Below the pieces are notes generated by a model. That model saw only the letters and a list, made by a program, of their open reading frames with translations, did not search any database and was not told where the DNA came from. Positions 1 through 57,930 of a stretch of 64,000 nt of DNA are shown piece after piece. The stretch is from Rhizomucor pusillus (lineage: Eukaryota > Mucoromycota > Mucoromycetes > Mucorales > Lichtheimiaceae): positions 27,584 to 91,583 of the forward strand of contig FWWN02000349.1 in NCBI GenBank assembly GCA_900175165.2. The letters run 5' to 3'. A program made the position numbers and the translations under genes. Position 1 is the stretch's first letter; each line of letters begins with the position of its first letter.

Positions 1-3000
1 GTGTTAACAGTGTTGTAGTCAACAAAAACGAAGGCAATTATGGCTTACCTCGTCGATATCCCAGGAAACCACAAATTCCCGTTCCAAAAGTTGTACCAAA
101 AATCGGAAGCGATCGTTGAATTCGTCTTCAATTACCTTGTCCTCTGTAAAGGACAAGTAGACTACAGCAAAGAAGGCATCCAGTAAAAATACATCGGTAA
201 TCTGTTTGTAACGTTAACTATTGTCTGGTTGCAATTATTCAATTAGGAGACTTGCCTGATTAGCGTAGTAAGAGAGAGTCATCACATTATCAGCGTGGTC
301 GTTTACTCGAATATTAGTGTCATCGGTGATTTCTTTGTTTTCTATGATAAGATTCTTGGCCTCGTCTAGGAGCCGGAAAGCATAAAAGATAACAGCATCC
401 GTATCTTCTCCATCTACACACGTAGAGAATTATTCGCAGCCCATCTTATCCTCAATGGTTGTCACTAATTTATCATGTTTACTTACCTTGCCAATCGACT
501 TGATATCCGCGCAACACAAGTTCTGTCTTGAGCCAAGTCGCCATGTCCTTAATTTTACCAAATGATACACCGCTGGTCGCTCTGCCGTATAAAATAACTG
601 CCGCAACCAAAGAAGCAGGCGATGCCACCAAAGCTTTGCGTTGGTTGATCTGGATTTCTCGAGTAATCTTTTCGACAAGTGTCGCTTCGTCACTGGGATC
701 TCTGAGGGATCCGCTGCTTGCTCTGTAAACTTCCTCCGCGGCTTCTTGTACACTGACCAGCGGACCAATACCGAACAAAACACGGCCGTGCTTGCGTACA
801 GCCTCGCCGCCTTCTAAAATCTTGTTTCTCTTATCCATCGCTTCGCTCGGTCGCATAATGCTTGCAGGCTGCGAAACGTTGCGTCGAGTGGGCTTTTGAT
901 CCAAAACATCGTCAAGAAGATACGGCAGTTCAGGGACATTTTCATACGTCATATTAATAGGTACGAATATCACGTCTCTGTGAACCTTGCGCGAAGTGCT
1001 GATGTTGCTATCCACACTCATAGTAGGACTGATAAGCGAATCAGGAGTGTCTGGTGTCGCGGGAGGACTATTCTCGAGACTCGCCACTCGGGAAACAATA
1101 GGAGTTCGCTGCTGGTTGGATTGAAGCGTCGACTCTATCACCATTTCGATCAGACCGTCGTGGTATGCTTCCTGGTATTTTCCAGTGCGGCTGCGAGATT
1201 TCTCGAGTCCTAGCGATAAGGCACCGTGCTCCCGAAGCAGGACCTGAGTGTATGCAGCCATCACGGCAGTGTTCAGAGGGGATCGTTTGCTCTTGTCACG
1301 TTTGATGTAGTATGCGCCGGCCAAACGGTAGATATCAGAGATGGGACCGAGTTGCACGAGACTCTCGTCGCAAGCGAATGCAGGTACAGGCAGGTGATAA
1401 CGGATGGCGACATACCAGACCAATAATGGATCAAGTACACTGCGGGTTACCGGCACATAGACAACACGCTTTCCAAGCATTGCAGTTCGGATCTAACGGA
1501 GATATATAATCCGGTTTACATCGCTGCTGTTACCAAGCCCTCCGTTCATCCTTACATTTCTTATACTGTCTTCATGAATGCGAATATTTTCAAACATGTC
1601 GTCAAATAGAGACTTTAGAAAATAACCTGCAAACCACACGAATGCCAGCTGTGTTCTTTCGCTCATGCGCGCAAGGATTTTCTAAAAACAAAAGTCAAAA
1701 ACTTTCTCCTTTTGCTTGTAATCGACTACGCTTACGATAGCTTCATTGACAGCTGTCTGCTTTTGCACGCCAGCATTCTTTGTAATCTATTATTATTTGC
1801 ACGATATAAGCATGTAACATTCATGTGATACAGTAAACTCGCTTAGATGCCAAACCTGATGAATAGCTTGGTTGACACGTTTATCGTTGAGCACGACAAC
1901 CTTGACACTCTCGTCGTTGCTACCGACTTTGCGTCGCCATTTTCCGAGCTGAGCTCTCTTGTCTTTATCTGCGTTGAGTATGGTACCGTCTTGGCACCAA
2001 TCATCTAGACTGTCATCCATATCGCGCAGCCAATCTTCTTCGTCCTGTTCGGTCCTGGAAGCATTGTTATCCAACACTGCTTTCACTTGTGCAACCATGC
2101 GTGCAGTTCGCGCCGCTACTTGGTCGTTGGAGAATACACCGCTCTGGGCTGGCGTGTCAATCAAACGATTGCTCTCGAATACTTGCAGTGCGCACATCCA
2201 GCTGGAAAGAGGCGACGGCAAGCGCAAGTCTGGTTCTTGGCATACATAGTAGTGGACACCGTAGCAAGCGTTCAAAAAGTAGTTATTCCAGAATGCATGA
2301 TCTACATCTTGTGGCACAAGGCTGTGCGGATCTAGCTGCGGCGTAGCTTGCAGTTGATATGACAGCTGAGCCGCATTTGTGTCACTGATGGTGATGTATT
2401 TGAGAGTTGACTTTGCTGTCAAGGACAGTTTCGTTGCTTTATCGATACATCGGCTGAGACGCTGAGAACTGCGTTTTCTGTTCCTTGCTTCGGCTATACT
2501 TGCGACACCGTTGCCACCACTCATGTAAGACGACGCTGCTGAGCGTAAAGAGTTCATCATCGTCTTTGCTCGAACAAGTCCTCCAGCGCCGCTGAGTGTT
2601 GATGCAAAGTACATTTGTGAGGTTGGTAAATTGATCGCCGTCGTCGTTGTCCAATATTGTCGTATTGGTTCATATGCTTGTTTCCAAACAAGACAACGTT
2701 TTGACGCCATTGTTACGTGATAGATGTAAGGAAACGTAGCTGTGCTTATCAACGATTTTGCATGTACAGACGTCCTTGATGATACATTCGTTCCAGATGA
2801 AGATCGTTGGAATGATATGTCTTCTGTTGATTTAGAGTCTCGGATAGGTGAAGATAAAGTTTCGACGGATCCTCCGCTCGATCGTTGTCGCTGGTGCTGG
2901 TGCTGGTGCTGTTGCTGTTGCTGTTGAAAACTGCTCTCGTCATATTCTGTGGGCACCGAAAAATCTTCCTTAGGCTCTACAATGGTAGCTGTGCAACCCA

Positions 3001-4417
3001 AAACCATTCTGACGGCATAGTCCACCGGTACGATATCTGCTGGTAAATCACCATCTCTAGAAGGAATCACTCGAATGCCTCGTCCGGTAAGCAAAATTGT
3101 TCCATTGGCTCCATTCACACCGTCAGCCTCAAATATACGTTTACGTTAAAATCATCAACTCTGTAAACGCACACATATTTTGTCACACACTTACCCATGC
3201 CATCAATGGCTCGGCGACACTTGGACCAATAGGGCTGAAACGCATGATGGCGACCGGATATTGTTGACCACCTGTCGATCGTTTTCGTTCTACTTCGCGA
3301 ATAAGCATATGCTCGGCCAAGGACTTGGATAGTAAATATGTATCTGGGTACAAGCTTTTGAGTTTATCAAATAAAGCCGATAGATCTAATCAAATAGATT
3401 CTTCAGTTTTAATCCAAGCAAACGGATTCAATCATACTCATACCATTCTCTTCAGCGCTTAGTATTTCATGCAAAATTTCTGATGGATCTTGGTTCAATG
3501 GAAGTAGTCTATCTTCGCATGCAAAACCGGAGAAGCTTTGCAGAGGCGACATGTGGATAAATGCGGAAAGTCTCATACATTCGTTGGCGATCTCCATTAA
3601 ATTCATTGTTCCTAGGACATTGGACTAGAAAATCCCACCAATTAATCCGCCGTGATATCAATCGTTTCATATGCATCCACGCTCACCTGAGTAGCTAAAT
3701 CAAGTCGCTCATTTCCGTCGACAACCGCGGCGCAGTGGAATATTACATTGGTTTCTAAGACGAGTAGTTTGCGGTCTTCCGTCGTGAGGCCGAGATCACG
3801 TTGCAATAGGTCGCCTTCTATTGGATGGATTTTATCTCTCATCGTTCTGTCAAACAAAGTGGGTCCCATAGATCGCCGAAGAGACACGAACGCCTACGTA
3901 CATCGTATTAATTAACGCGCTTTGGGAAATTTAGCAAGGTACTTGCCTTGTTGGCTAATATCTCCTCCTGAAGACGTTCTTGCACTGTAGTTCTCCCTCG
4001 CTGCTGAATAGGCCGCACCAAAATGAAAACTTTCTTGACGCCAATCATCAACAGCTTCCACAACAGTGCCTTGCCGACGAAACCCGTTGCTCCCGTTAAC
4101 AGCACTGTCTTGTCGTGATAAAACGTTTCCGGGTTTTCGAGCTGCTGTTCCGGAATATGTTGGGCCGTTTCCTCAGGCTCTATAGTTGACGTTTCGTCCA
4201 GTGCAGCTTCGTTAGTTTCAGGTGTTGACTGTTCCGGTGCGGGTACTTCGATAGTCTCTTCCTCAATCAAGTCATCTCGATCAAGCGCCTCCATGTCTTT
4301 CACAACGTCAAACACGGTTGGTGAGCCTGGTGGAGGGGGCGACGAAGGACTACCAATGCTGAGATTTGTGCTCTCATGATTTGGATCGGTTATCGATATG
4401 GTTGGTATTTCACTCAT
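1..4417 (-). CDS. Fatty acyl-CoA reductase / PlsB-GNPAT-type acyltransferase fusion (3' end outside window)
   Basis: Seen: nine exons (4417-3947, 3893-3687, 3624-3444, 3385-3195, 3127-1856, 1681-1556, 1492-487, 413-256, 201-49) join in frame to exactly 1,255 codons; a donor at 48 shows that the gene continues leftwards. The N-terminus is acidic and disordered. A male-sterility type NAD(P) domain follows, with TGATGFVG at about residues 108-115 and a YLLSK (YxxxK) active site at about 303-307. A Gln/His-rich linker comes next. From about residue 785 the protein resembles PlsB/GNPAT acyltransferases (GAYYIKRD, SRSRTGK, VPINMTYE). Known: the reductase makes fatty alcohol from acyl-CoA, and GNPAT acylates dihydroxyacetone phosphate; both feed ether-lipid synthesis. 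Odd: the HX4D catalytic motif reads TRSVLD (T832-D837), so the expected His is missing. The start at 4417 is preferred over an in-frame ATG at 4525. Two introns use GC donors (3946 and 255). Confidence 0.85.
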
Positions 4418-11800: not shown

Positions 11801-11807
11801 TTACAAT

Positions 11808-14338
11808 TCGTAAAGCATGCCGATTTGGATCATCTTGTCAACAGGAACTCCGTAAAGCGTTTGTCGATTCTCCATGCTGTTTCGTAGAAGCCAGGCATAA
11901 CATTCAATGATGACGCGCTTGATGATAAAAGTCCCGGGCTTGGAGGTAACGTTGACTGTATTTGTAAGGTAGACGATTCGTTGCTCCTTGGCTTTTTGTA
12001 ATTTGTCGGCTCGCTCAAACATTTCATCGGCTCGCAGCAACTCCTCGATGCGGTTTACAACGTATTCGTCGAGTTCGCTCTCAGATGGTGGTAAATCCTT
12101 GTATCCTTGACGCAAGATAATACGATAAGCCGAGCTGTTGGTGTTGTTTGTTGAAACAAAGCTATCATCGAGGAATACTATGCTGCGTTCTTCTGTTGGG
12201 ACGGTTGCGATGTTGACACTTCGACTGTGGCAAAAGATCACGACCGATGGTTCAACTTGCAGCACGCTGCGTAAATGTCTGTATGCTGTAGGGACGTCGA
12301 ATCCAGCTGGATCGAATACGATAAAGATACCATCCCATGGAGACAAGTTGGAAGTAGTAGGTCGCAAAATTACCATCGAATCACCAGACATGTCGATTTC
12401 CTCGCCGCGGACGTCCTGTTTGCGAAGCAAAGTTTCGTACGCCCATTGCTTGATAGTTCCGTAGCGCCAGATACCCATAAGTAAAGATAGGACTAGACCC
12501 ATAGCGATTGTAAACCACGCACCGTTGGGAACCTTGAGAAGCGACGAAGATAAATAAGCGCCGTCGATGAGACCAAAGAAGCAAAAGAAAGCAAGCGAAA
12601 GCAGGATATTCCAGCGCCAGACAATGATGGATACCAGCGTCGTAAAGATGGTCGTGACAAAGGTGCTCATGACCACGCAAGTTCCGTAGGCGTGTCCGAG
12701 AGCGACTGTATTTTGGAATCCTCCGGCAACAGCGACAGTAGCAATCATCAGAAGCCAGTTGGCCTCAGGGATATACACTTGACCTTGAAATTTATGCGAG
12801 GTGTGGACAATTTTGAGCTGAGGGATGTTGGAAAGATTTATCGCCTGGCTGAGAATCGAGAAGCATGCGGAAATCATAGCTTGAGACGCAACAATAGCAG
12901 CCAGTAGAGCCATCACGAAAGCGAACCAAAAAGCTGCAGGAGGGACGGATGCGAAGAAGGCGTTGCTCCATGCGGTACCAGTTGTGTCTTGAACCATGTA
13001 TGCAGCTTGGCCAAGGTAGGCAATCAAAAGGCACTGTATCGAGCATGTTAGATAAGGAGTATATGCGAGGGAATTTAAGTCGACTACTTACAGGATAGGC
13101 GAATCCAAGCCAAGATAAACGCACAGATGAAGCATGAAAATGTCCGAGATCCGCAAATAGTGCCTCGACACCAGTGATCGCAAGCAGAGTACCGCCCATC
13201 ATTTCCCAGCCTTGACGTCCGTGATGAGCGAACCAGTGATAAATCCAGTATGGCGAGAATGCTTGGAAGACAGATGCATCGTAGTAAACGAGGTTGTAAA
13301 CACCACAGGCGAGATTGAGCAAAAGCCAGATGACGACAATGGGTGCAAAGGTAACGGCGATCTTGGTTGTTCCAATAGGTTGAATGGCAAAAATAAGGAT
13401 TAGGATAACCTCAGATATGCCTGTACGCATAGCGTCTGTGATCTGAGGAGCGGCGACTTTAAGACCTTGGATAGCACCGATAACTGTTTTATGCATAAGA
13501 TGTCAGTTGTTGATCGTCATATGACGTTAATGTTTACGAAGAATGCACTTGCCCGTTTGCGCCGGTGTTAGAACACCATCCGCAAGCACCATACAAACAC
13601 CAATGATAGCAAGCAGACTGACCAGGTGCCTCAGGAGATTTGAATTTTCCAGCCAATTCCGGAAACTGCGGTTGATGGATCGTATATCGCCTGTCGGATG
13701 TCTGCTGAATCCGTGCCTGCTCACGCTGTTTGGATTACTCCAACTGATACGTGCCTGCGTAGAAGAGTGTTAGTCTCGGCAGGTTGTGTCATGTAATATT
13801 GCAACTTACGTAGCGAGCAAGTAACGAGTACAGCGCAAATGTGCCACCTTCACCGTTATCGCTCGCAGATAAGACAAAGACACAGTACTTGACAGTGACC
13901 ACCAGCGTCAGAGTCCAAATGATAATTGACAGGGATCCCAAGATATCTTCGCGTGTGGGCGTGGAGGTAAATGTGGAAGAGTATACGTACAATGGGGATG
14001 TTCCTATGTAACAGGATCATCGTCACAATCTGTTGCAGATACAACGGGTTGTCATGATTAATCTCACCAATATCACCGTAAATAACGCCTACTGATTGAT
14101 ACGCCAGATATAACATAATTGATTTGCTAATCACCTATCAATCACAAAAGAAATGATCGTTAGCAGGAGGTAAAGGGCGTATTACTTGAGATAATGGGTA
14201 ACTTGCAGGTCGAGAAGGGATATCGGTGTTCACGAGGACATCCTTCGACTTGCCAGTTTGCACCGAGTTGAACATGGTCTTGTCCTTGTACTTGATAGAA
14301 CTTTCTTGATCAATGTCAACAATATCCTTCTCCTTCAT
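11808..14338 (-). CDS. HAK/KUP-family potassium transporter
   Basis: Role: H+-coupled high-affinity K+ uptake across the plasma membrane. Seen: six exons starting at ATG 14338 (MKEKDI). The KUP signature [17 protein letters not shown] is created by splicing 14134-exon to the next exon. [16 protein letters not shown], about a dozen hydrophobic segments and the hydrophilic C-terminal domain typical of the family follow. The protein ends in GMLYEL, and the length (roughly 760 residues) fits fungal HAK proteins. The intron at 13552-13484 has a GC donor, required by the frame to give LTPAQTVIGAI. An upstream in-frame ATG exists at 14476 but adds an unlikely leader. The 510 bp upstream of 14338 separates it from the lectin gene on the same strand. 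This is a single-gene unit. Confidence 0.92.
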
Positions 14339-28260: not shown

Positions 28261-28740
28261 CCAGCTAATGTAAAACGGTTTGCAGCATCAAACGCATTAT
28301 CTTGAAACCGTAGAGCTAAGAACACTAAATTAATTCGATGTTGCTTGTTTATGTGACCAGAAATTCTGTAGTCAAGTGTGCAAAGTATTCGTAAATTGTG
28401 ATTATAAGGTGTACCTATCATAATCCATGTCGATATCGGCCTACGTTCCGAGTGATGTGGTTGGTTTTGTTAATTCTCAGACAGAAATAGTGGGAAATTT
28501 TTTCTCTCTCTCCATCAGTGACCTACCTGCAAAGAAGGCATTCATTGCATTTTATTCGCATTCACAATGGATGGATATGTTAGTCGTATAAAAGATGGAC
28601 TGGGCATCTAGAGAAAACTGTGCCAGGCTGGTCGGATTGTCATATTCGCCTCTATCAAGTCGTACCTTTTTAGTCCCCTGTGCTACATCCTTGTGTTACA
28701 CAAAAAGTGGCGCTGTAGCAAAAATGGCTCTTCCAGCCAC
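28261..28740. other. Upstream region of the F-box/LRR gene
   Basis: AT-rich, with no recognisable feature. A GTATAAAAGATGG sequence near 28590 could be a TATA element, though it lies about 150 bp from the ATG. Confidence 0.3.
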
Positions 28741-30300
28741 ATGAGTTCAGGGCTCTCATCTCTTCCATCTTCCTTTTTATCGAAACCACATATCTTCATG
28801 CACGACAATTGCCGTGTGCTTAGACCACCAGCGATTGATTATACTCTGACATTACCGGACCATGTATTAGAAGGCATATTTGAAAAGCTTTCAGCGCAAG
28901 AGTGCTTCCGAGGACCTTGCAGAGTCTGTCGACGATGGAACAGCGTTATCAGTGCAAGCGGAAGGATATGGAAGCACGTTTGCCTGGAACGAGTTGCATA
29001 CGACAATTGCCCCTTACTCCAAAGAGACGGCGTGGCATCAAGAAGCGTCGAAAGCCTAGTCATCTGCAACAATCAAACAGCAGCCAACTGGGAATATATT
29101 TTTAAACGATTGGAAATGGCAGAGTGTCGTTGGATTAAGCATCTCAGTAAGCAACAAACAATGGAGCAGATCTTAAGACTCCTGAACCTGGCAGTAAACG
29201 CAAAAAATCTAGAATGCCAGAACCCTGATAGTAGCAGTGTCAGGACATACATCTCACCTTTCGTCTGCTGGCTTGGAGAAACTTTGAACACCTTGACGAT
29301 CGAGAATCCCACATCTTTCGATATCACAGAAACCTTATCTATAATTCTATCCAGCTGCAAAAACCTCACAGAACTTTTCATTTACGGTTCAAAGTTTCCT
29401 TGCGCTCCATCAGCAGAAAGCAACGATGCTTTTGATAAGCTCGGAACGCTAAAGCTCAAACGGCTAAAACTCGATTTATATTGCATGACTGTCCGACCAT
29501 TCATCAACTCGCTTTTCGCACACTGTCCGTTGTTGGAGGACATTCAGTTACAGGGACTTGCTGGGCCGATATATGCCGACGATATCCAAATATTCTACCG
29601 TTTCCCGCATTTACAATCTTTTACTTTAAACGTAAACCATCCTTACATAGATATCGCACATTGGCGCGGCAACGGCGACGACGACGACGATGGTAAACGG
29701 CCATGGAACTCTCTGCGCTTACGATTGCGTGATGCATTGAGAGACAACACTGTACAAACCATCCTTAGTTGCTGTCGCGACATCGAGACTTTGGATATTG
29801 TCCGTGATAACCATGATCCTACTATATTGTCGCTGGTGCCGCGATATTGCCGCAAGCTGCGGCATCTTGTACTGTCCGAGCAAATACCAGATGCATCGAC
29901 AATTAAGGAGACCGTATCGTTGTTGACAGAAAAACATCCTCTTCTTACGACCTTGGAACGGGTGACAATTAACAACTGTCACGTTGAAGGCTCGCGGTTG
30001 ATTTCTGCCATATCTCCGTTGCTGAACCTACCCTCTATGACCGGTTTTGGACTCAACAAGTCGATGTCAATTACAACTGCACAGATACATGCATTGCGTT
30101 CCTCGTCGATCGAGAACTTATACCTCATGGAAATGCAAATTGATGATGGCTGGATAGAGGCTCTTGAAGCCTGGGATAAACTGACTGGCTTGCATCTTGA
30201 GAATTGCACCGGTGTCACCCAAGACTTTATTGTTGCCCTGTTATCTTCTAGATGCTGCAATCTCAAACATTTATATATCAAGCCCTCGAATTTTCCTTGA
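28741..30300 (+). CDS. F-box / leucine-rich-repeat protein (C-terminus frameshifted)
   Basis: Role: probable substrate receptor of an SCF ubiquitin ligase. Seen: ATG 28741. The F-box is YTLTLPDHVLEGIFEKL and CRVCRRWNSVI. Irregular LRRs follow (CKNLTELFIYG, LKRLKLDLY, CPLLEDIQL, and NLYLMEMQIDDGWIEALEAW), then the family motif ENCTGVTQDFIVALL. By comparison with paralogues, 29147-29212 is probably a 66-nt intron (CATCTCA|GTAAGC ... ATCTAG) that happens to have no stop and keeps frame. At the 3' end one extra T in the run before 30298 turns FLDNA into FP-stop; the next frame still encodes the conserved tail up to about 30366. The protein therefore lacks the last ~25 residues that its relatives share. 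Confidence 0.85.
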   Translation: MSSGLSSLPSSFLSKPHIFMHDNCRVLRPPAIDYTLTLPDHVLEGIFEKLSAQECFRGPCRVCRRWNSVISASGRIWKHVCLERVAYDNCPLLQRDGVASRSVESLVICNNQTAANWEYIFKRLEMAECRWIKHLSKQQTMEQILRLLNLAVNAKNLECQNPDSSSVRTYISPFVCWLGETLNTLTIENPTSFDITETLSIILSSCKNLTELFIYGSKFPCAPSAESNDAFDKLGTLKLKRLKLDLYCMTVRPFINSLFAHCPLLEDIQLQGLAGPIYADDIQIFYRFPHLQSFTLNVNHPYIDIAHWRGNGDDDDDGKRPWNSLRLRLRDALRDNTVQTILSCCRDIETLDIVRDNHDPTILSLVPRYCRKLRHLVLSEQIPDASTIKETVSLLTEKHPLLTTLERVTINNCHVEGSRLISAISPLLNLPSMTGFGLNKSMSITTAQIHALRSSSIENLYLMEMQIDDGWIEALEAWDKLTGLHLENCTGVTQDFIVALLSSRCCNLKHLYIKPSNFP

Positions 30301-36345: not shown

Positions 36346-36592
36346 TTAATGGAGAATGATGGAATCGATGGAGGTAGGACTCGGATATGCAGAAGACGAT
36401 GGAGTGGAGGGGAGTTGCAGCGGAGGTAGTGAGATATGGCAAGGTCGCGAAGAATACGTATCTTCGTGCGGTTTAGTACATGCGGGCGGGGACAGCGGCG
36501 GAGAGATGGGCGGAAGCAAGGTACTGCTACTTTGGGATGAAGGCGACGAGTGTACCTTGCAGTAACTTTGACAATGATGATTGTGATGATAA

Positions 36593-36629
<37 letters not shown>

Positions 36630-37128
36630 GCGGCCGTCTATCTTGCTGTTGTTGTTGTTGCTGCTGTTGCAGCTGTCTTTCCCGCGTACGCAAAGATTGA
36701 CGCTTGTTTTGGAACCAAATCTGAACTGCGCGAGGACTCATACCGAGCTGTTTACCAAGCTCGATGCGGAACTCGGTGGATGGAAAGTATGTTTGACTGA
36801 AAACATGGTTTAGGACAGAGAGTTGAGCTGGTGATGCGCGCTTGCGTTTTGCCTTGAGCGGTGTTTGCATATTGTATGTCGATCCGTAGTAAGAAGAGGA
36901 AGCGGAGGAAGTTTGTCGGTGATACGGCTCGTGACGTTGGTGATGATGCTGGTGATAATGGTGCTGGGAATACTTATCATGGGACTGATGCTTCTGAAAA
37001 GATGGACTGTAAGGAGCCGGTGTGGAAGGTGGTGAAACCAGGTTGCGAACTTCAAGGACAGATGATCGCGTACGAGGCGCGGTAGAATAAAGAAGATCAG
37101 AAAGTGGAGGCAAAGTGCAAGAGCGCAT
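36346..37128 (-). CDS. Homeodomain transcription factor (Yox1/Yhp1-like)
   Basis: Seen: an intronless 260-codon frame. The homeodomain sits at about residues 92-150: KRKRASPAQLSVLNHVF, then ELGKQLGMSPRAVQIWFQNK with the invariant W-F-x-N-x-R pattern (WFQNKRQSLR). The flanks are low complexity: His/Gln-rich before the domain, two polyglutamine runs after it (9 and 12 Gln), and a Pro/Ser-rich end (STLLPPISPPLSPP). Known: the FQNKRQ helix and SPxQLSxL pattern match fungal Yox1/Yhp1-type homeodomain repressors. Nuclear DNA-binding regulator; targets unknown. A TATA box lies upstream at 37201-37210. The poly-Gln codons form a CAA/CAG repeat that may vary in length. Confidence 0.85.
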
Positions 37129-37200
37129 TGTTTTTTTGTTCCAAAGCAGTAAAGAAATCGAAAAGTGGATGTAGAATGTCGGTTACTGTCAAGACATAGA

Positions 37201-37504: not shown

Positions 37505-38946
37505 CTACATATCCTCGGTCGACCATGCGTGGGCTTCGACTGCTCTTGCCTTGAGCTGATTCTGGCGCAGTAAGAATTGATCTTCGAAACCATTGGATCG
37601 GTCAACGCCATCCCATCGATAGCCCGGTGGTATCATGAAGCGATTCGGTTTCCAAGGCCCCTTGTACTTGGGTCTAGTCAATCCGCCTTTGCTGCCTTTA
37701 CTTCGATTCTGATCACAATATTCACGGGTTAATCATTTCATTCTCTCCTTTTCGGCATTATCAAACAAGACTTACAGTCAAGAACCCTGCAGCCGGATCG
37801 TTCCAGCGTTGTTGTTCTTTAAGTCCCTGATTATATTCTTCATCGTCTGCGTACCTTAAAAAGAAGCATATCAGTATTGGTCATCCCCAAAAATAGTCCA
37901 GTGCTCTAACTTTAGTGTCTCCGAGTTCATTCATATTCTGGCTCACGCCTTTCTCTCTCTCTCTGTGAGAGACTCTCTCTCACACACACTCTCACGCTCG
38001 CTCTCTCTCATTCTCTCTTTCTGTGTCTGTGTCTCTGTTTTTCGTTTGCTCCTCCCCTGCCCTAATAACTCCTTTTGGTTCAAACTTACCTAGCCAGTGG
38101 TTTGTGTTGTTCCTGCTCGAGCATTCGTTTGCGAGCTTCTTCTTCGCTGCGCTGAACAAGCCCCTTTCCCCATTCCATCCGCCTTTCCTCTCGTTCGATA
38201 GCTTCTCGGCGTTGTCTGGCCTCCTCAGCCCGTTTGATCTTTGGATCAATTTTACGTCCCGTCTCATCTCGGTACACCGTCTCCGCATGCTGCCCTGTCT
38301 CTCCTTTAAGCTTTTCTAGCATCTGCTTCTCCGCTTCTCGTGCCCGAGCTGCCTCTTGTTTGAGCTCTTCGCTCGTCAGCAACCCGGCCTTTTGTCCGCT
38401 CGACATTTTGGGTCCCGTATCATTACTACTACTCCTTTGTGTTGCTGTTGCTTTTGTTGTCGTTTTTGTCGTCGCTGCTACTGCTACTCTTGCTCTCGCT
38501 TCTGCTGCTCCTAGCGCACTTAGTGTCTCCTCATCCATATTCTCCATAACGAGCACAGGCTTTTCATCCTCTTCTTCCTCTTCTGGTTCTTCGACCTCTT
38601 CTTGCTTAGTTTGTTGTTCTCCTTGCCGAATCGTTTGCCAATTGTCAGTTCGCCCCCGGAACACTCCTCCCTGTACGATTTCTGTATCCTCTTTCGCCTT
38701 GGTGCTAGGTTCTTCCGCATCGATGTCCATCGGTGCTGACGGCCATCCACTGTCTTCGTCATCCACAATGCCAAGATTGCCTTTGCGGATCGATGTCTTT
38801 TCTTTCTTCTTTTTTTTCTTCTTTTTAGGTTCCTCGCTGCTGCTGCTGAGGTATTTGTTGAGGATATACTGCTTTGTTGCTTCATCGCCAGGCCCTCGTA
38901 CTAGATATTTGCGCCGAGCGATCTCGTCCCTTTCGGCTTGATTCAT
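37505..38946 (-). CDS. BUD13: Pre-mRNA splicing factor BUD13/CWC26
   Basis: Role: component of the RES complex in activated spliceosomes. Seen: the start is probably ATG 38946 ([15 protein letters not shown]), with an alternative in-frame ATG at 39003. Lys- and Glu-rich disordered sequence leads to [14 protein letters not shown] second block reads [17 protein letters not shown], then DPAAGFLT. The C-terminal family signature [12 protein letters not shown] appears here as [17 protein letters not shown] and ends in AWSTEDM with TAG at 37505-37507. Three exons. The first intron (38089-37855) is 235 bp, several times longer than its neighbours, and is filled with CT/GA repeats. The RES-binding C-terminus is complete, so the gene looks functional. 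Confidence 0.88.
37951..38039. repeat. CT/GA low-complexity tract inside a BUD13 intron
   Basis: A run of TCTCTC, GAGAGA, CACACA and GTGTCT units expands this intron. Opposed CT and GA stretches could fold into a short hairpin. Confidence 0.8.
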
Positions 38947-39003
38947 GGTGTGAACGATAGAGTCGTGCCACTGGAGCTGCTTTGCAGGAATCCAAAAGCG
39001 CAT

Positions 39004-39384
39004 TAATTCTCAGCCACTTGTCATTGACGCTCCTACGGCAACCTGCCATTATTTGCGAGGTTCTTCGTATCTAACGGTCAGAGATGTATTGCATTATATC
39101 CTGATAACTTTGCAGTGAAAGCAAGCATGAATTGCTTATTTATGAGCAAAGGGAGAATTGAAAAGTACCTCTCTTAGGAACGACGGCACTAGGAGTTATT
39201 GTTAGATAGTTTCTTGCACATAAAAGAATCATTGTAAGGTGAACGATTGCATGCCTGTTCACTTGTGATATACATTGTCGCTTTCAGTCATCTGGCATTT
39301 ATTGGAGATACGCTTACATATTATCCGCATTGACTTTTGCATGACAATTTTTTCAACTTCCTTCTTTTGATTTCCCCCCGCGTT
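39004..39384. other. Divergent promoter region between BUD13 and a hydrolase
   Basis: About 380 bp of AT-rich sequence between two divergent starts. No specific motif is claimed. Confidence 0.35.
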
Positions 39385-40475: not shown

Positions 40476-43400
40476 TTAGAGATATGTAAAGTAGCTATCA
40501 GAGATACTGTTTTTCAAAAGTAAAGGTGGTATGCAAATAAACGAGGCAAAGAACATAAAGACGAGGATGAAAATAGGTCCGTACACCAACGCAATGCGAC
40601 GTCGTCTCCGTCGTTGCTTTGTTGACAGCACCGATGGCCGGATTTGCTCTGATGGCCGTAACCAAAAGAGCATAAGTGAGTGGACACGATCCACACCGGG
40701 TATGAGCGTGATTGGGAACAAGACAAACAGGATAATATGCCCGAGGATGAAATCTGTGGTGAATACAGACATTTCGACGATCTTGCAGATATATTCCCGA
40801 GCAGCTTGGGGACCAAGCTAAGTATGTTACAGACAAACATTAGCAAAGCGAGAGACTAATGTATTTGTAGTCATCGTTTCTTTTTTGTTTTACCTTACTG
40901 CTTCGCCAACGACCTGTCCACCAGACCTGGTTAGTTGCATCGTGAGGCAGCTCGCGAGGCAGCAAGATAGCCACAACTGCCTTGAAGATAAACCGTTGCA
41001 AGACAAACATGGTGAGGAAACCAAGCACGGTCGATCGAAATGCAAAGTCTTCGAGCCACCAAAATGTTTCGAATGCGATCACCAGGCCCAATATGGCCAA
41101 ACCGTGTCCGGTCATGGAAATATACAGTCCAATCTGCTTTGAACAGCCAGCTGCAGCTAAGGTAATAGACAGGGCTTGGAGTAACAGGAGTACACATGCA
41201 TTCCAGGCAATAGGTTCCACGGTCAGGAACGCTACGCGACCGATTGCACCTGCAGGACCCAGTTCATCCTTAAGATCCCGGCTCTTGTAGAATACATAAC
41301 ATGCAGTGCAAAGACAGGCATGCAGCAACGGCGTAAGGATCTCGGAGGCGAAAATACTTGAGAGGCGTGCTCGGGGCGAAACAGCCGTCGGTTTACCGGT
41401 TTTGCTTCGTTTAACACCGGTGATACGGATTCGCGACTGTCTGCAAAACGTGATCCATGAATGAGAATATGATCGCCCGGCGTTCCCGCGTGCTAGCCAT
41501 CCAAGGAACTCGCGATAGTCGTTGATAAAGTCGCTCAGCACGAATTGATGTGGGTTGAAAATGAACGGCGAAATAACCAAAGAACCAACGGTTCCCCAAA
41601 AGTACAATAGATGAGGTATCCACAGAGTCAGTGTAACAAATAAAAGAATGAGCATCGTCCGTGCGCCGAAGTAAATACTGGGATTGGCAAACCGTGAATA
41701 CAATGTCGAAAACGGCAGACGAGCTGTTGCGAAACCTCGACCTGTTGCAATGTAGCGAGCACCGCCATAGCTCAGGTTGGATAACACCGAGTTGGCGTAG
41801 ATCTGGTTGACAAACACTTCAAATAGCGGGGAGAGTGACATGAACTGCTTGATGAGACGCTGAGTGCTCCGGAGAGTTCCTTTCTCAGTGAGTTCTTGCA
41901 AGAATAGCGGTAGAAATGCAATAAAGAACACCCAAAAGATAGCAGCTATGCATCGTTCGAGCCAGTCATACACTGGTGTCATGTTGAAGCAGTTACCGTT
42001 GCCGTAACGACAGCCTGGGAGCGACGTTGCCATCGTACCGACGAACATCATACAGAAGAGGAATAGCTGGACTGCGAATATGATCATGATATTGTTCATA
42101 TGGAATCCCGGATGTGCATAGTAAAATGTAAGGAAGCGGTCTAGAGGCAGCTGTGTGCCGAGGTAGTAATACTCACGCGAAAGCATCTGCTCTCCCATGC
42201 CCGTTCCAATCTTGGTCGTAAAGTTGAGAATAGAACAGAATCCAAGATCACGTCCTTTACCGCACTGAACGTATTCCGTGTGCTTGATGCGCCCGCCGCG
42301 AGACAGTGCGTTCATGCCCGCATAAATATCCTCATTGAGATGCAAACCACGCTGTGCCTTGCTGACACCGCCTCTTGTAGTCATATACACTGCGTTCAAG
42401 AAATCTGGATGTCCATAGTGCAACCGTCCGCCGGTCTTGGCCATGATCCGCTGAGTCAGGGTACCAAACGTCTGTTCTTTGCCGGCTGCAATGTCACCCA
42501 GGACGCCCACGTTCTCTGAGAAGATGTATTCTCTTGCACCCACAATTGCAACAGGGGCTTGCATTTGGGTTTTGGAAACATCGCTTTGCAATGCGTAAAT
42601 ATCCTTCAAATCGGGCGCTTGCTGCTGCTCGAATTCAGCAAACACGCTGCGCACCTTAAGACACTCTTCGAGATAGTTATCTTGATTGGCATCGACGAGC
42701 TGCAGATATTCACCGCGATAGAATATAATTGCATGGTTCTGGTTGTCTGATTTACCGTCGCCGAGGATCGGGTTACCAGGGAGCCGGATGCGGTATTTGG
42801 GTTTTCGTTTGTTGTTGGGAAGCTTCTCGCAACCTCCGTCGATGAGCACGGAGTAATACGTAGTTTCACCTCCTGACTCCTTGCTGGGCTCTTCTTCAAT
42901 GTATGCAATCTGGAGATGCGGAAACTCCTTGAGAATGGCTTCACAGTTCTCGTTCTCTTCTGGGGTGAATTTTGCATATCGCTGCATGGCAACCAGATAC
43001 CGAAACTTTTGATGCGCGATCCTATCCAGCAACTCTTCAGTGTACTTCATGTCGTAAAAGTCAGCTGCCATCTCTGGATGCTCAATGCGGTGTAGAATCT
43101 TTAGTGCGCGTGCATAGTTCATAAAACCTGACACGGTACGGTAGAGTGTCTGAGCACGCAAAGATGCCCACATCCGAGTGCGCATGGTATACTCTGGCTT
43201 GGAGGACTTGAAACCGATGCAGTAAAATGGCAGATCGTCTTTTGCCTGGATAAGCTTGTCCAGTGCCTGGTTTGAACCCTCTTCTTCCGCCAAGAACTTT
43301 GTATCTCGCACAAAGTTCTCCCACTCGGTGGGATGCAATTTCTTGAGATACTCCAACAATGTCACCCTTGTCGTGGAATCTTCCTCCCTAATGATCTCCC

Positions 43401-45759
43401 GCAGCGTCAATATCATCTTTTCGGCATAGTGCGGTGTGAACACGGTGAATGTTGGCATTTGCTGCACAGAACTGGGAAGTGGTATATCTGTCGATAAGCT
43501 CTGTGCAAAGAATGAGAGACGTCGCTCTGCTTCCGAATAGATTGGAAAACAATCTGTCTTTTTCGTCTTGCTCTTTGGATCGAAGAATGAGGGCGCCGTG
43601 ATTTCCCCAGGCTTATCCCCGTCAGCTGGGCGCCAGTGATACAGCATAGCTTGGAGATTGTTGTTGGAAAGCAGGTGCTCCCGATACATGGCAATAACAA
43701 CCGCGTTCCACAATTGGGAGCAAGCCATCCTGCGAACCGTTGTTGATCCGAGTTCTACAGTGGTCGCAAGTACTTTGGAATAGAGCTGACTGGGTACACG
43801 GGCAAACAGTGTTTTCCAGGATGTCATAATCGATATGCCCATCCGAAATGCCTGAGATACCGAGAACATGGTGTTCCAGACGACGTACCACAGATAAGTA
43901 TCCAGGAAGAAGAGCACAAACTCGACGGCAAACATGAGCACGCTCGTCGCTACAGGCATAAACATGCATAGCCATCGTCCCAGAACAGCGTCGTTGCTGC
44001 AGTTTCGCAGATGCATCGTACTCGCAGAGGCCAAGGCGTCTCGGAAAGACAAGGCTAGAAAGAAATAGGTCTCCAAGAACTTGCATACGAATACGCACGT
44101 CCACAGCATGATAGAAAGCGTGCGATCATCGCTGGTCATGCTAGGGAAGCTCGACGTAAACGTTTTGCAAGTTAAATGATGGCTCGACCGTCGACGGTGG
44201 AATAAACTGGCGGATGGCAGAACAGCCAGTATGACTGCAACGATGGCACCTAGCCCGACCTGGCAAGCACCGACTACAAGTGATACAAAGCTTGTCCTGT
44301 CGATCCATATGACATAAATTGAAGCAGCCACGTGGCACATGGCTAGCAATCCCAAAACGGCGATCCGTGTCAGTAAGATGCGTGCGTTGCTTGCTGATGC
44401 TGGTAGATACATGAATTCCGCGACGGTCGCTGCTGCCATCAATAGTACTGCTACAAGTCCTCCCAGGCCGATCACAGATAATTTAACTGGTCTCTCAGTT
44501 CTCTCATTGCGTATATACAAAAAGTCGACGTTGGCAGCCATGTAGTACCAAAATGTGGTTGCATGAATAATCCAAATACGGGAAAAATTGGTTAGCAAGT
44601 GTAGCCACGAGCGGGATTCGTAGAATGTCTTGTGGAATGCCGAGTGCCAGTCAACAAATGCAAGGTGGCTGTACCGTTCGTGTCTCCGTAAATCTTTTAG
44701 CAATCTGCCATCTTTGAGTCGAAGCTGCGCGATTGCCCGTTTATCCCAGAATAGTTGGTTGATATCGTCGTAGCCAATAATGGCATTGTGGTCTTTTTCT
44801 CTGCGAACATATTTGCCCTGAACGACTTCGTAAGACTGGTCGCGACAAAAGTTGTAAAGGGGTGTTATGATGTGATCGATGAAATATCCAGGCACTTGCT
44901 GTGTGGATAACGATGAACGCGAGTCTAACGTAAGGTATCCTCGATAGTCGTCTGCCAAGTGGAATATGAAGCACAAAAGCTCCGGTGCATAGCGCAGCAC
45001 CGCCGCTTCGCCCCAAATCAGCAAGTACAATGCAAGCTGTGCAACGCGCGTCCTATTGGACATCAATTCCATCCGCTCTCTCCACTCTCGCTTGGCTTCT
45101 TCCAAGAGCAAGCCCGTCGGTGTTTTTGGAGTCACTTGGCCGTCATCCAAATCTAAATGAGCAGTGAAGAACCACTTTCGGTAATTGGCGTGTTCTCCAC
45201 CAATGTAATCCGCGTGCAACGTCCACAATGCTTGCGTTTGCGACATGCGTGCAGATCGAGAGTCCAGCATGGTGAGCAAATGATCGAGCATGTTGCGCAT
45301 GTTATCACGCTGGAAGCCGAATTTCACTGCAAACTCTGCAAATATGCTTTGGATTTCGTTCACAGGAATGGGCGTATCAGGTGTGTCCCAGTTGGGATAT
45401 GCATTGTCGGTTCTGACGTATTCGCGACTGTGCCTCAGTGCCGAGTAGATGCTGCCTGCGGATGTGTGGCCATAAAGTTGTTCGTCGCCATCAGTTTGAA
45501 ATTCGGGAAATGGAACATCTGTCCAAATCGTTGCTAACTATTAGCACGAAAAATGGCCCGAAAAAACGCGAATGAAATTTTCAATGTGTATATTCGACAT
45601 TGTTACCTATGACGGGTCGTGCTGGCAGAGATGTTGTACGCGGTGTCGTGTTTGTGTTGTCATTACTATCAGTAGGTCTACGTGCGGGATGTCAGCAAGC
45701 AGGTACAGCAACGTTGGAACGAACAAATAAACACACTTTGCGTTGTTATGATGAGTCAT
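40476..45759 (-). CDS. FKS1: 1,3-beta-glucan synthase catalytic subunit
   Basis: Role: plasma-membrane UDP-glucose transferase making wall beta-1,3-glucan. Seen: the large exon (about 45533-40910) has the FKS1 N-terminal domain (MRNMLDHLLTMLDSR, HADYIGGEHANYRKWF). The cytosolic catalytic block includes DANQDNYLEECLKVRSVFAE, AKTGGRLHYGHPDFLN, EDIYAGMNALSRGGRI and MGEQMLSREYYYLG. Many membrane segments flank it. A short last exon ends at 40476. Two small 5' exons (45677-45607 and 45759-45737) are inferred from frame continuity. Total is about 1,700 residues, a little shorter than yeast Fks1. Echinocandin hot spot 1 reads FLALSFRDA and hot spot 2 DWLERCIAA, both diverged from yeast (FLTLSLRDP and DWIRRYTLS). 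Single-copy in this window. Confidence 0.93.
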
Positions 45760-55611: not shown

Positions 55612-57369
55612 TCATTTTGAGTACGTGGCATAGATGAAAGATCCTCCTCGATTTGACATGATCTCCTCCGCATAACATACAGTGTCTTGGTTTATAGGAA
55701 GTCGGTACCCTCGCAGAAGCAATGTCGATAAAGTTGGCAAGGAGCATATCAATTGTCGCAAAAACGCATCGGTTACACCAGAGCAGTCCGAGATTTCCAA
55801 GCTTTTCAAAGCTGTCAAAATTTCCAGCGCATCTAACCATTCGTCATCGAGACGCACATCGTGAAGAATCACATTTTCCAGTTCTGAATCCGTCAAAAAT
55901 GCAATGTGATCTCGAGTAATGATATTTTGGCAGTTCGTGATCTCGAGACTGTGGACGCTCGGCAAACTTACGAGGTCGACGAACCATGATCTTGAGTAGG
56001 CAGCGCGGCCGACAAGGTCAACAACTGATATCTTTTGCAGATAAGGCAGCGTTCCGTCCGCCCTTGCTTGCTTCGTCATATTGATTATATATCCGGACAA
56101 AACCGCGTATCCACCAATAGTCAAGTGACGAATTTTTGGCATATGTTGTGGTATAGGCCCATAGATATCGTACAATGTATCGTGGTATTTAAGTGCTTTT
56201 TCTGTCTTGTAGCGTGCATACAACTCGAGCTCTTCGACTTGCGAGCATTGCCTGAAAACATGGGACATTATTTCCTCGAGATGCTCCTGATAGTCGATCC
56301 TGATGCGCAAGGATTTCCATGATCTTTTGCCAAACTGAAGATAAGCTGGTATATGCGAGTAAGGTACTATGATCTCAGCATGTCTCGCTTCTTCGTCATC
56401 ATCATCGTCGTTGTGGTATTCCGTGACAATGCAGGTATCGCAAAGGTTCACGACAAACGTCTTGAGTTTCGGGAGTAACCGTCGACTAATTGCGTTCCAT
56501 TCTTCGGCTACCACCGGTCCGTCGTGGTCCTCCAAGATAAATTCTTCAAGCAGCGGACACAGAGGTAGAAGATGCTGGATGAGATTGCCGAGCCTAGATC
56601 GTCGTATCTCCAAGTGTAGGTGCGTCAATGCAAACTCTTGCTGCTCGGATATCCGTTCGTAAGAACTGACGGGATCGTGGAGATTTTGACGAGTTCCGTA
56701 TATCGACAGTGATTTGAGATTGCTGCAACTACTGAGGATCCGTGCCAAACTTGTATCCAGAAACATATCGACGCCAAACGCGACCTCCAGCGTCGTAAGC
56801 GACGGACCTAGCCAACAAATGAAATCGACTGCCAAGGGTGTCAATGTGAATGTGATGGGAAAGAACAGCTGCCGTTGTGGATCTCCTAGCAAACCTGCAT
56901 GCATAAATTTCGTTGTTAGTCTACAGCCACACCTCCAACCGAAAGATACATGTTTCCACTCCTTACTTAAGGATTCAATGTTACCGCAGCCTGCTTTTTG
57001 GAGCAAACATACAAGCAAGTCGAGATCTCCCGCACGATCGATCGTTAGTCGTCTCAGGTACTTGCCAACATCAAGTTCGCGTTTCAACAGCGGACAATCC
57101 ACTAATTCTTGGGCAGGGCGTAAGAACCATATCGTTTTCCACATCATCGGTGAGGTTTGGATGACGCTGTACCATCTCCAGCATACAGTTGATAAATTTA
57201 AACATTCGTATGCATTAAAATATTTGAAGATGAGCAGCAAAACATGGTCAGGTAATCGACGTGTTTGATCGAGACAAGGTCGTAGTTGCGGAGAAGGATC
57301 CAAGATCGGCGACAGCGACAGCATAGTATCACTGCCTGCATTGTTAGTGTTTGGATACAATAATGCCAT
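55612..57369 (-). CDS. F-box / leucine-rich-repeat protein, divergent member
   Basis: Role: probable SCF substrate receptor. Seen: ATG 57369 (MALLYPNTNN); a non-ATG extension reaches 57420. The F-box is RLPDHVLLLIFKYFNAYE and VCWRWYSVI. LRR-like blocks follow: CSNLKSLSIYG, CPLLEEFIL, CSQVEELELYA, IRHLTIGG, SLPSVHSLEITNC. The ending is SDCSGVTDAFLRQLI and MSNRGGSFIYATYSK. By comparison with its relatives, 56966-56895 is a 72-nt intron (TTA A|GTAAGG, CTAAC branch, GCATGCAG) that is divisible by three and lacks a stop, so both spliced and retained forms stay in frame. An acidic DDDDDEE run lies in a loop. It is the most diverged of the family, probably an old duplicate, and is intact. Confidence 0.85.
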   Translation of the reverse strand: MALLYPNTNNAGSDTMLSLSPILDPSPQLRPCLDQTRRLPDHVLLLIFKYFNAYECLNLSTVCWRWYSVIQTSPMMWKTIWFLRPAQELVDCPLLKRELDVGKYLRRLTIDRAGDLDLLVCLLQKAGCGNIESLSKEWKHVSFGWRCGCRLTTKFMHAGLLGDPQRQLFFPITFTLTPLAVDFICWLGPSLTTLEVAFGVDMFLDTSLARILSSCSNLKSLSIYGTRQNLHDPVSSYERISEQQEFALTHLHLEIRRSRLGNLIQHLLPLCPLLEEFILEDHDGPVVAEEWNAISRRLLPKLKTFVVNLCDTCIVTEYHNDDDDDEEARHAEIIVPYSHIPAYLQFGKRSWKSLRIRIDYQEHLEEIMSHVFRQCSQVEELELYARYKTEKALKYHDTLYDIYGPIPQHMPKIRHLTIGGYAVLSGYIINMTKQARADGTLPYLQKISVVDLVGRAAYSRSWFVDLVSLPSVHSLEITNCQNIITRDHIAFLTDSELENVILHDVRLDDEWLDALEILTALKSLEISDCSGVTDAFLRQLICSLPTLSTLLLRGYRLPINQDTVCYAEEIMSNRGGSFIYATYSK

Positions 57370-57930
57370 GAAAGGTTGCGACTGTGCGATAAGAAAAAGG
57401 AATGCAAGCAAAACTGGCAACGATGGACAGCAGAGAATCGCTTAATTCCCATGGCAGCAATGCATGTGACCTTGCAATTGGTTGAGTCGCCACCAACGAG
57501 AACATTTCAATTTCGCATAAATGATGAGCGTCTGTTGATGGTTGGACAGACAGTTGCCATAAAAGGGATTTCAAATTTTGCACCCCAAGTGAGAACGATA
57601 CACCTAGTCGTATGTTGTGCGTTGCTCCATCCGCGTTGATGACCCTTGTTCAATGTCAGCCACCGTAATTGACAGGATCAATGGCCAGAAAGGTCAAATA
57701 GTGAGCATTGTCGCGGACGAAGCGAGGAGTTGCTCCGTAGCAATTGATTGACAGTCGACTGCGCAACTGAGAATACAGTTGATCGGATTTAGATGCTTTG
57801 CGAAGCTAGTACGACCAAAACGAATCTGAGCAGAAGAGTCAAGCTTCTGAAAAGAAAAGATTATAGCGTCGCTTCATTGACTCGAAGTCTGTAACTTGTG
57901 CTACCGTCACTGCTCAGCATTCACAAAATA

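Follow-up and report, generated by a model that had tools for sequence, protein, structure and literature searches.

What becomes of an acyltransferase when the histidine that serves as its general base is replaced? The question is raised by the window, the whole stretch of 64,000 nucleotides of Rhizomucor pusillus DNA analysed here (contig FWWN02000349.1, positions 27,584 to 91,583 of the forward strand, assembly GCA_900175165.2, a 24.5 Mb draft in 353 contigs). A gene on the minus strand, which starts at window position 4417 and extends beyond the left edge, encodes a fused protein, here called FAR-AT, whose N-terminal part is a fatty acyl-CoA reductase (FAR, PF07993) and whose C-terminal part is a PlsB/GPAT-type acyltransferase (AT, PF01553 and PF19277), both assigned by Pfam. 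Motif I of the PlsB, GPAT and GNPAT enzymes is HXXXXD, and Thr849 takes the place of its His in the window protein. The answer that we consider likely, taken as a whole, is that the protein is a fungal relative of the protist enzyme FARAT in which the AT half has lost the His and is kept as a non-catalytic pseudo-acyltransferase.

The gene was spliced by hand from the window and the fetched left flank, with relatives guiding exon 6 and the C-terminus. The model has 12 open exons, a single stop and intron borders that are GT-AG or, in two cases, GC-AG, and predicts a product of 1548 amino acids. Its parts, including the end that would carry a peroxisomal targeting signal type 1 (PTS1), are as follows.

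3947..4417, minus strand: exon 1, with the Met start, an acidic N-terminus and the reductase NAD(P)-binding motif TGATGFVGK; GC donor (splice model and PF07993)
3687..3893, minus strand: exon 2, reductase (splice model)
3444..3624, minus strand: exon 3, reductase (splice model)
3195..3385, minus strand: exon 4, reductase, carrying the FAR active site DTYLLSK (splice model)
1856..3127, minus strand: exon 5, end of the reductase, linker and middle region (splice model)
1736..1786, minus strand: exon 6, 51 bases (acceptor corrected against relatives)
1556..1681, minus strand: exon 7, where the AT half begins (splice model)
487..1492, minus strand: exon 8, AT core holding the positions of motifs I to IV, with PF01553 and the first part of PF19277 (splice model, Pfam)
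1445..1447, minus strand: codon ACC, Thr849, at the position of the HX4D catalytic His
1430..1432, minus strand: codon GAT, Asp854, the retained HX4D Asp
1295..1318, minus strand: motif II, GAYYIKRD, Arg kept
1187..1204, minus strand: motif III, EKSRSR against EGTRSR, Glu and Arg kept, Gly lost
941..964, minus strand: motif IV, VPINMTYE
256..413, minus strand: exon 9, C-terminal region of the AT half; GC donor (splice model)
49..201, minus strand: exon 10 (splice model)
-11 to -526 and -619 to -933, window-relative, beyond the window (locus L011), minus strand: exons 11 and 12, ending ...RRISEAYNLRQ, no PTS1

Two of the 11 introns start with GC, at window 3946-3941 (AAG/GCAAGT) and 255-250 (CAG/GCAAGT) of the minus strand, and the protein joined across both agrees with the family consensus.

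At motif I the minus-strand frame reads VYVPVTRSVLDPLL. HMMER alignment places Thr849 on the His of HRSHID in human GPAT1 (8e4y) and of HRSHMD in the PlsB-type 9vuq, which bears out an earlier sequence-only reading that had seen a Thr in place of the HX4D His; the blocks GAYYIKRD, EKSRS (here EKSRSR) and VPINMTYE are also as that reading gave them, at 1318-1295, 1204-1187 and 964-941. Its position for the Thr codon, 1431-1433, does not fall in frame and shares bases with the Asp codon at 1432-1430, the true ACC codon being 1447-1445, and its Thr 832 and Asp 837 become Thr849 and Asp854 in the spliced model. The key residue is thus gone, in a single draft genome, and the Thr might be an assembly error or the gene a decaying pseudogene. 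Against this stand the 12 open exons with their GT/GC-AG borders, the at least two base changes that separate a His codon from ACC, the 74% identity that residues 755-1438 of the provisional model show to the nearest relative, from Zychaea, the Thr common to four close relatives (Zychaea P0001, Phascolomyces P0002, Fennellomyces P0003 and Dichotomocladium P0007) and the lack of His at this column in all 109 FAR-ATs compared below. Comparison with relatives and the open splice model together led us to reject sequencing error, which the sequence-only reading had allowed for, as well as a pseudogene, and to both we assign next to no probability.

The family was supplied by three protein searches, with the AT region as query, with a profile of the fungal proteins and with a profile of canonical FARATs, against a database clustered at 90% identity. 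The AT-region search scored 7993 candidates sharing most words and matched 109 proteins, of which 107, from Mucoromycota or from entries without a species name, are FAR-ATs or pieces of them and two (P0108 and P0109, 22-23% identity) are distant metagenomic acyltransferases with His that are excluded from the fungal counts; the profile searches contributed the best 120 of 239 matches (fungal) and the best 120 of 292 (canonical). The fungal set (n = 109) consists of the window protein, the 107 database rows and Bifiguratus P0110. Ten of the 107 rows (P0015, P0016, P0057, P0086, P0088-P0090, P0092, P0093, P0098) are archive or metagenome entries placed in Mucoromycota by similarity alone, and some are fragments or doubtful gene models whose protein ends may be hidden. 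The non-fungal set comprises 76 FARATs taken from the two profile searches; those with a species label come from dictyostelids, other amoebozoa, oomycetes, ciliates and one dinoflagellate, and many have no such label. Neither counted set includes P0111-P0115, P0118, P0132, P0139, P0140, P0141 and P0221; P0144-P0159 (an insect reductase and bacterial-type fusions), P0213-P0220 and P0222-P0256 are untabulated. Counts and columns follow a provisional model in which the Thr is residue 839, the corrected model having 10 more upstream residues.

The His column in the 109 fungal FAR-ATs holds Ser in 93, Thr in five, Ala in five, Cys in three, Tyr in two, Asn in one and His in none, and the Asp of HX4D is retained in every one. 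The next residue is Lys in 98 and Arg in 11. All 76 non-fungal FARATs keep the His, the following Arg and the Asp. The Thr is therefore not fixed across the clade, as the sequence-only reading had proposed to check by alignment, and Thr as a new catalytic residue is unsupported; as a fixed one, it is rejected on the variability of the column. Nor do orthologues with His, the finding that would have told against that reading, occur among these proteins. The aromatic residue and Arg of motif II are present in the window protein, and the Arg in 107 of 109 fungal rows. In motif III the fungal rows have Glu (99) or Asp (9) and Arg in 108, with one gap, and the Gly of EGTRS is replaced in all 108 that show a residue. 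Bifiguratus P0110 has gaps at both motifs, perhaps through a fault in its gene model. The structures predicted for P0016 and for window exon 8 match GPAT1, indicating a PlsB-type fold, and in both the His-column residue would lie in a loop between a strand and the helix that begins at the Asp. Trp, Arg, Asp, Ser, Asp and Arg at provisional columns 849, 854, 865, 875, 876 and 893 (108/108 each) and a His at column 1351 (100/100) are invariant in the fungal proteins and absent or rare in other FARATs; to judge from the alignment, these residues may be the sign of a new site for a ligand or a contact.

The closest known system is FARAT, the product of Dictyostelium fatA and also reported for Tetrahymena, with which the window protein shares the order of FAR (PF07993) followed by a PlsB/DHAPAT-type AT with the GPAT C-terminal region (PF01553 and PF19277) in one chain. 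The fungal profile matches P0126 from Dictyostelium discoideum (1278 amino acids, ending SKL), which is taken to be FARAT, at E 3.5e-132. P0126 has PTHRSYID, EGKRSR and SKL, whereas the fungal clade is without the His, the EGTRS Gly and PTS1. From human GPAT1 (8e4y) and PlsB the window protein differs in having no catalytic His, a replaced motif III Gly and a reductase fusion. Peroxisomal GNPAT (DHAPAT) has the role of the AT half in canonical FARAT; it is described in PMC4280512 as an HXXXXD enzyme with PTS1, and the fungal proteins have neither feature. A FARAT-like protein without the catalytic His and PTS1 of FARAT is real and present throughout the sampled clade. No report of this combination appears in the titles and abstract openings listed by literature searches aimed at it in fungi and at acyltransferases without His.

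A tree of the AT half was built from 68 chosen rows (44 of the 109 fungal, 22 of the 76 non-fungal, P0118 and P0132), with the non-fungal FARATs as root. Among the fungal proteins it resolves groups A, B and C with support 93, 97 and 100, the window gene being in A, and the distribution of His on the rooted tree amounts to one change. A single loss at the base of the sampled Mucoromycota clade is the simplest reading of this distribution and not proof, because P0132, P0118 and P0110 carry long-branch warnings and the fork that separates the His-keeping P0118 and P0132 from the other fungal rows has support 94. Group membership in the counts follows the best BLAST match, by which Bifiguratus P0110 seems to belong to group B; in the tree it lies outside A, B and C at an open fork. 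Contig C52 of the window's genome carries another FAR-AT, which is of group B type and also without the His (PESKTMLD). Decay of a different kind is seen in the fungal-type rows P0118, P0132, P0139 and P0141, where the His is accompanied by a destroyed motif III or the entire half is degenerate. In the fungal-side rows Massospora P0118 and metagenomic P0132 the His remains and motif III is gone, and the AT half of Conidiobolus P0141 is degenerate, so that inactivation of this half in early-diverging fungi seems to have taken more than one route. A His-bearing fungal FARAT was sought with the canonical profile: the best 120 of its 292 matches, many of which carry no species name, include no named fungus with PF01553, and Entomophthora P0221, the fungal row among them, is without that domain. 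The one Mortierellomycota row among the best 120 of 239 fungal-profile matches, Podila P0115, is a reductase without PF01553.

The reductase half of the window protein has the YxxxK active site (DTYLLSK), and because this site is intact the protein may still function as one part of a FARAT would. In rows that show the site, Tyr and Lys are both kept in 36/42 of group A, 37/40 of group B and 0/15 of group C, where the Tyr is replaced by His (14) or Gln (1) (group C rows lie among P0083-P0106). Group C may thus be dead in both halves. With the reductase Tyr replaced in all 15 of these and the site intact in 36/42 of group A, the AT half is not kept solely to serve an active reductase. Umbelopsis P0045 and P0054 likewise have His at the Tyr position.

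The peroxisomal address is also absent. The window protein ends in NLRQ, and none of the 109 fungal proteins has a PTS1-like end, which 42 of the 76 non-fungal FARATs have by a strict pattern and 64 by a loose one. In 59 of the fungal proteins a conserved tail resembling RR[IV]SEAYNL stands near the end, where most other FARATs have the PTS1-like end. FARAT is described as a fused protist enzyme of peroxisomal ether-lipid synthesis in PMC7375469 and PMC13256971, and ether lipids as apparently lacking in plants and fungi in the latter. The family PF19277 occurs in the window's genome only at the two FAR-AT loci, and no other PlsB-type protein was found there, also in a search with P0126. A separate acyltransferase gene on contig C281 (locus L043), with FPEGGSHD and a HANQFVD-like motif, is presumably of Sct1/Gpt2 type; it was not among the best candidates that the PF01553 genome search listed. 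No alkyl-dihydroxyacetone phosphate synthase was seen in the genome: the four PF02913 loci resemble D-2-hydroxyglutarate or D-lactate dehydrogenases (two of them by eye). One of them, on C71, also matches structures of the synthase, at E 1.7e-9, but was rejected as a candidate because its match to D-2-hydroxyglutarate dehydrogenase, at E 4e-46, is much the stronger. The DNA pattern for HHHG, which we take to be a motif of the synthase, gave one match, as many as the reversed control, and this match falls within another acyltransferase gene but out of its reading frame.

As expected of a pseudoenzyme, the catalytic residue is lost throughout the sampled clade and the fold is kept. The pseudoenzyme option of the sequence-only reading is well supported, since His occurs in none of the FAR-ATs yet Asp, acceptor-site Arg and fold are retained; its other wording, a regulator of the reductase half, is possible. 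According to a 2014 review (PMC4280512), H306G in E. coli GPAT markedly lowers Vmax without significant change in Km, H104A abolishes AGPAT1 activity, AGPAT1 and mouse GPAT1 both need the Arg of motif III, and motifs II and III serve mainly in acceptor binding. Because the His is lost, Asp, Arg and fold are kept and such mutants of relatives behave in this way, the AT half is best read as having lost turnover and possibly retained binding.

Several points weigh against the pseudo-acyltransferase. AT-core identity exceeds FAR identity in the fungal proteins, and the same holds in His-bearing FARATs (2505/2771 pairs; dictyostelid pairs 36/36), so that the excess indicates no relaxation and not a new function; as proof of a new role it was rejected. 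Towards its C-terminus the AT half falls below FAR in conservation, both in group B (60% and 71%) and in group C (43% and 49%). The apparent absence of alkyl-dihydroxyacetone phosphate synthase comes from a single draft genome, searched with one family and one presumed motif. Finally, the side chain at the His column carries a hydroxyl or a thiol (Ser, Thr, Cys or Tyr) in 103/109, the residue is Ser or Cys in all 41 of group B, and Lys or Arg follows in 109/109, so that some chemistry at the column is conceivable.

Such chemistry could take the form of a new catalytic site of Ser (or Cys or Thr), the next Lys and the retained Asp, performing acyl transfer or acyl-CoA hydrolysis by way of an acyl-enzyme, at least in paralogue B. 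The Lys that mostly replaces the uniform Arg of non-fungal FARATs, the full retention of the Asp and the partial retention of motifs II, III and IV, in which much is kept, and the proximity in sequence of invariant Trp849, Arg854, Asp865 and Asp876 (provisional columns) to motifs I and II fit this proposal; Asn in one row and Ala in five group A genera (Circinella, Radiomyces, Backusella, Hesseltinella and Cokeromyces), with the modelled position in a loop before the Asp-starting helix, argue against it, and we regard it as unlikely. To our knowledge, adjacent Ser and Lys have no known dyad geometry. A shade less likely still is the more specific form, in which Ser/Cys-Lys-Asp replaces the His base in an acyl-enzyme reaction. 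The acyl group might, for example, pass to the fatty alcohol that the reductase half of the same protein makes, giving wax esters, or acyl-CoA might be hydrolysed; the activity would be present in paralogue B and on the wane in the Ala-bearing members of group A. If true, it would be new chemistry on the PlsB fold. It is equally improbable, as with the first form, that the protein is a slow classical acyltransferase whose base is the Asp alone, some other residue (the EHGAL-segment His, for example), or the phosphate that the substrate brings with it. The universal Asp and kept acceptor-site Arg would suit it, and the EHGAL His (provisional column 912) is present in 96/108 fungal rows; this column is Arg or Lys in 11/108, the His is modelled at a helix end eight residues before motif III, and mutation of the catalytic His in related enzymes removes most or all of their activity (PMC4280512).

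The favoured pseudo-acyltransferase can be set out as a sequence of events. The gene would encode a fungal protein related to FARAT, the enzyme of protist peroxisomes that joins a fatty acyl-CoA reductase to a dihydroxyacetone phosphate acyltransferase and initiates ether-lipid synthesis. The AT half of the fungal protein has lost the His that acts as general base, in the simplest case through one event at the root of the sampled Mucoromycota, within the limits of the tree; the sampled clade is also without PTS1, and the fold, the Asp and the acceptor-site Arg stayed. Acyl transfer to glycerol 3-phosphate or dihydroxyacetone phosphate is most likely gone at a useful rate, to judge from the published His mutants. 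Selection would keep a pseudo-acyltransferase in which binding of acyl-CoA or of a phosphorylated acceptor persists and which may position, assemble or regulate the protein as a sensor, tether or architectural element. The first glycerolipid acylation would fall to the separate acyltransferase, presumably of the Sct1/Gpt2 family. A fungal lineage thus retains three paralogous groups of well-conserved, reductase-fused PlsB-type domains without the His, a natural case in which one half of a two-part enzyme has probably turned pseudoenzyme while the peroxisomal address is absent and the ether-lipid route apparently so. Annotation of fungal FAR-ATs as acyltransferases is unwarranted without assay, and the role for which a dead acyltransferase is kept becomes directly testable.

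Other genes of the window and its flank are the following.

11804-13087, minus strand: K+ transporter (Pfam)
28612-30297, plus strand, and 55615-57441, minus strand: two F-box genes (Pfam)
36349-37182, minus strand: homeodomain gene (Pfam)
38089-39009, minus strand: Bud13 (Pfam)
40843-45537, minus strand: 1,3-beta-glucan synthase of FKS1 type, a single open frame of 1565 amino acids

The next gene downstream of FAR-AT (L011, window-relative about -1700 to -3300, minus strand) resembles, by eye, a YEATS-domain protein.
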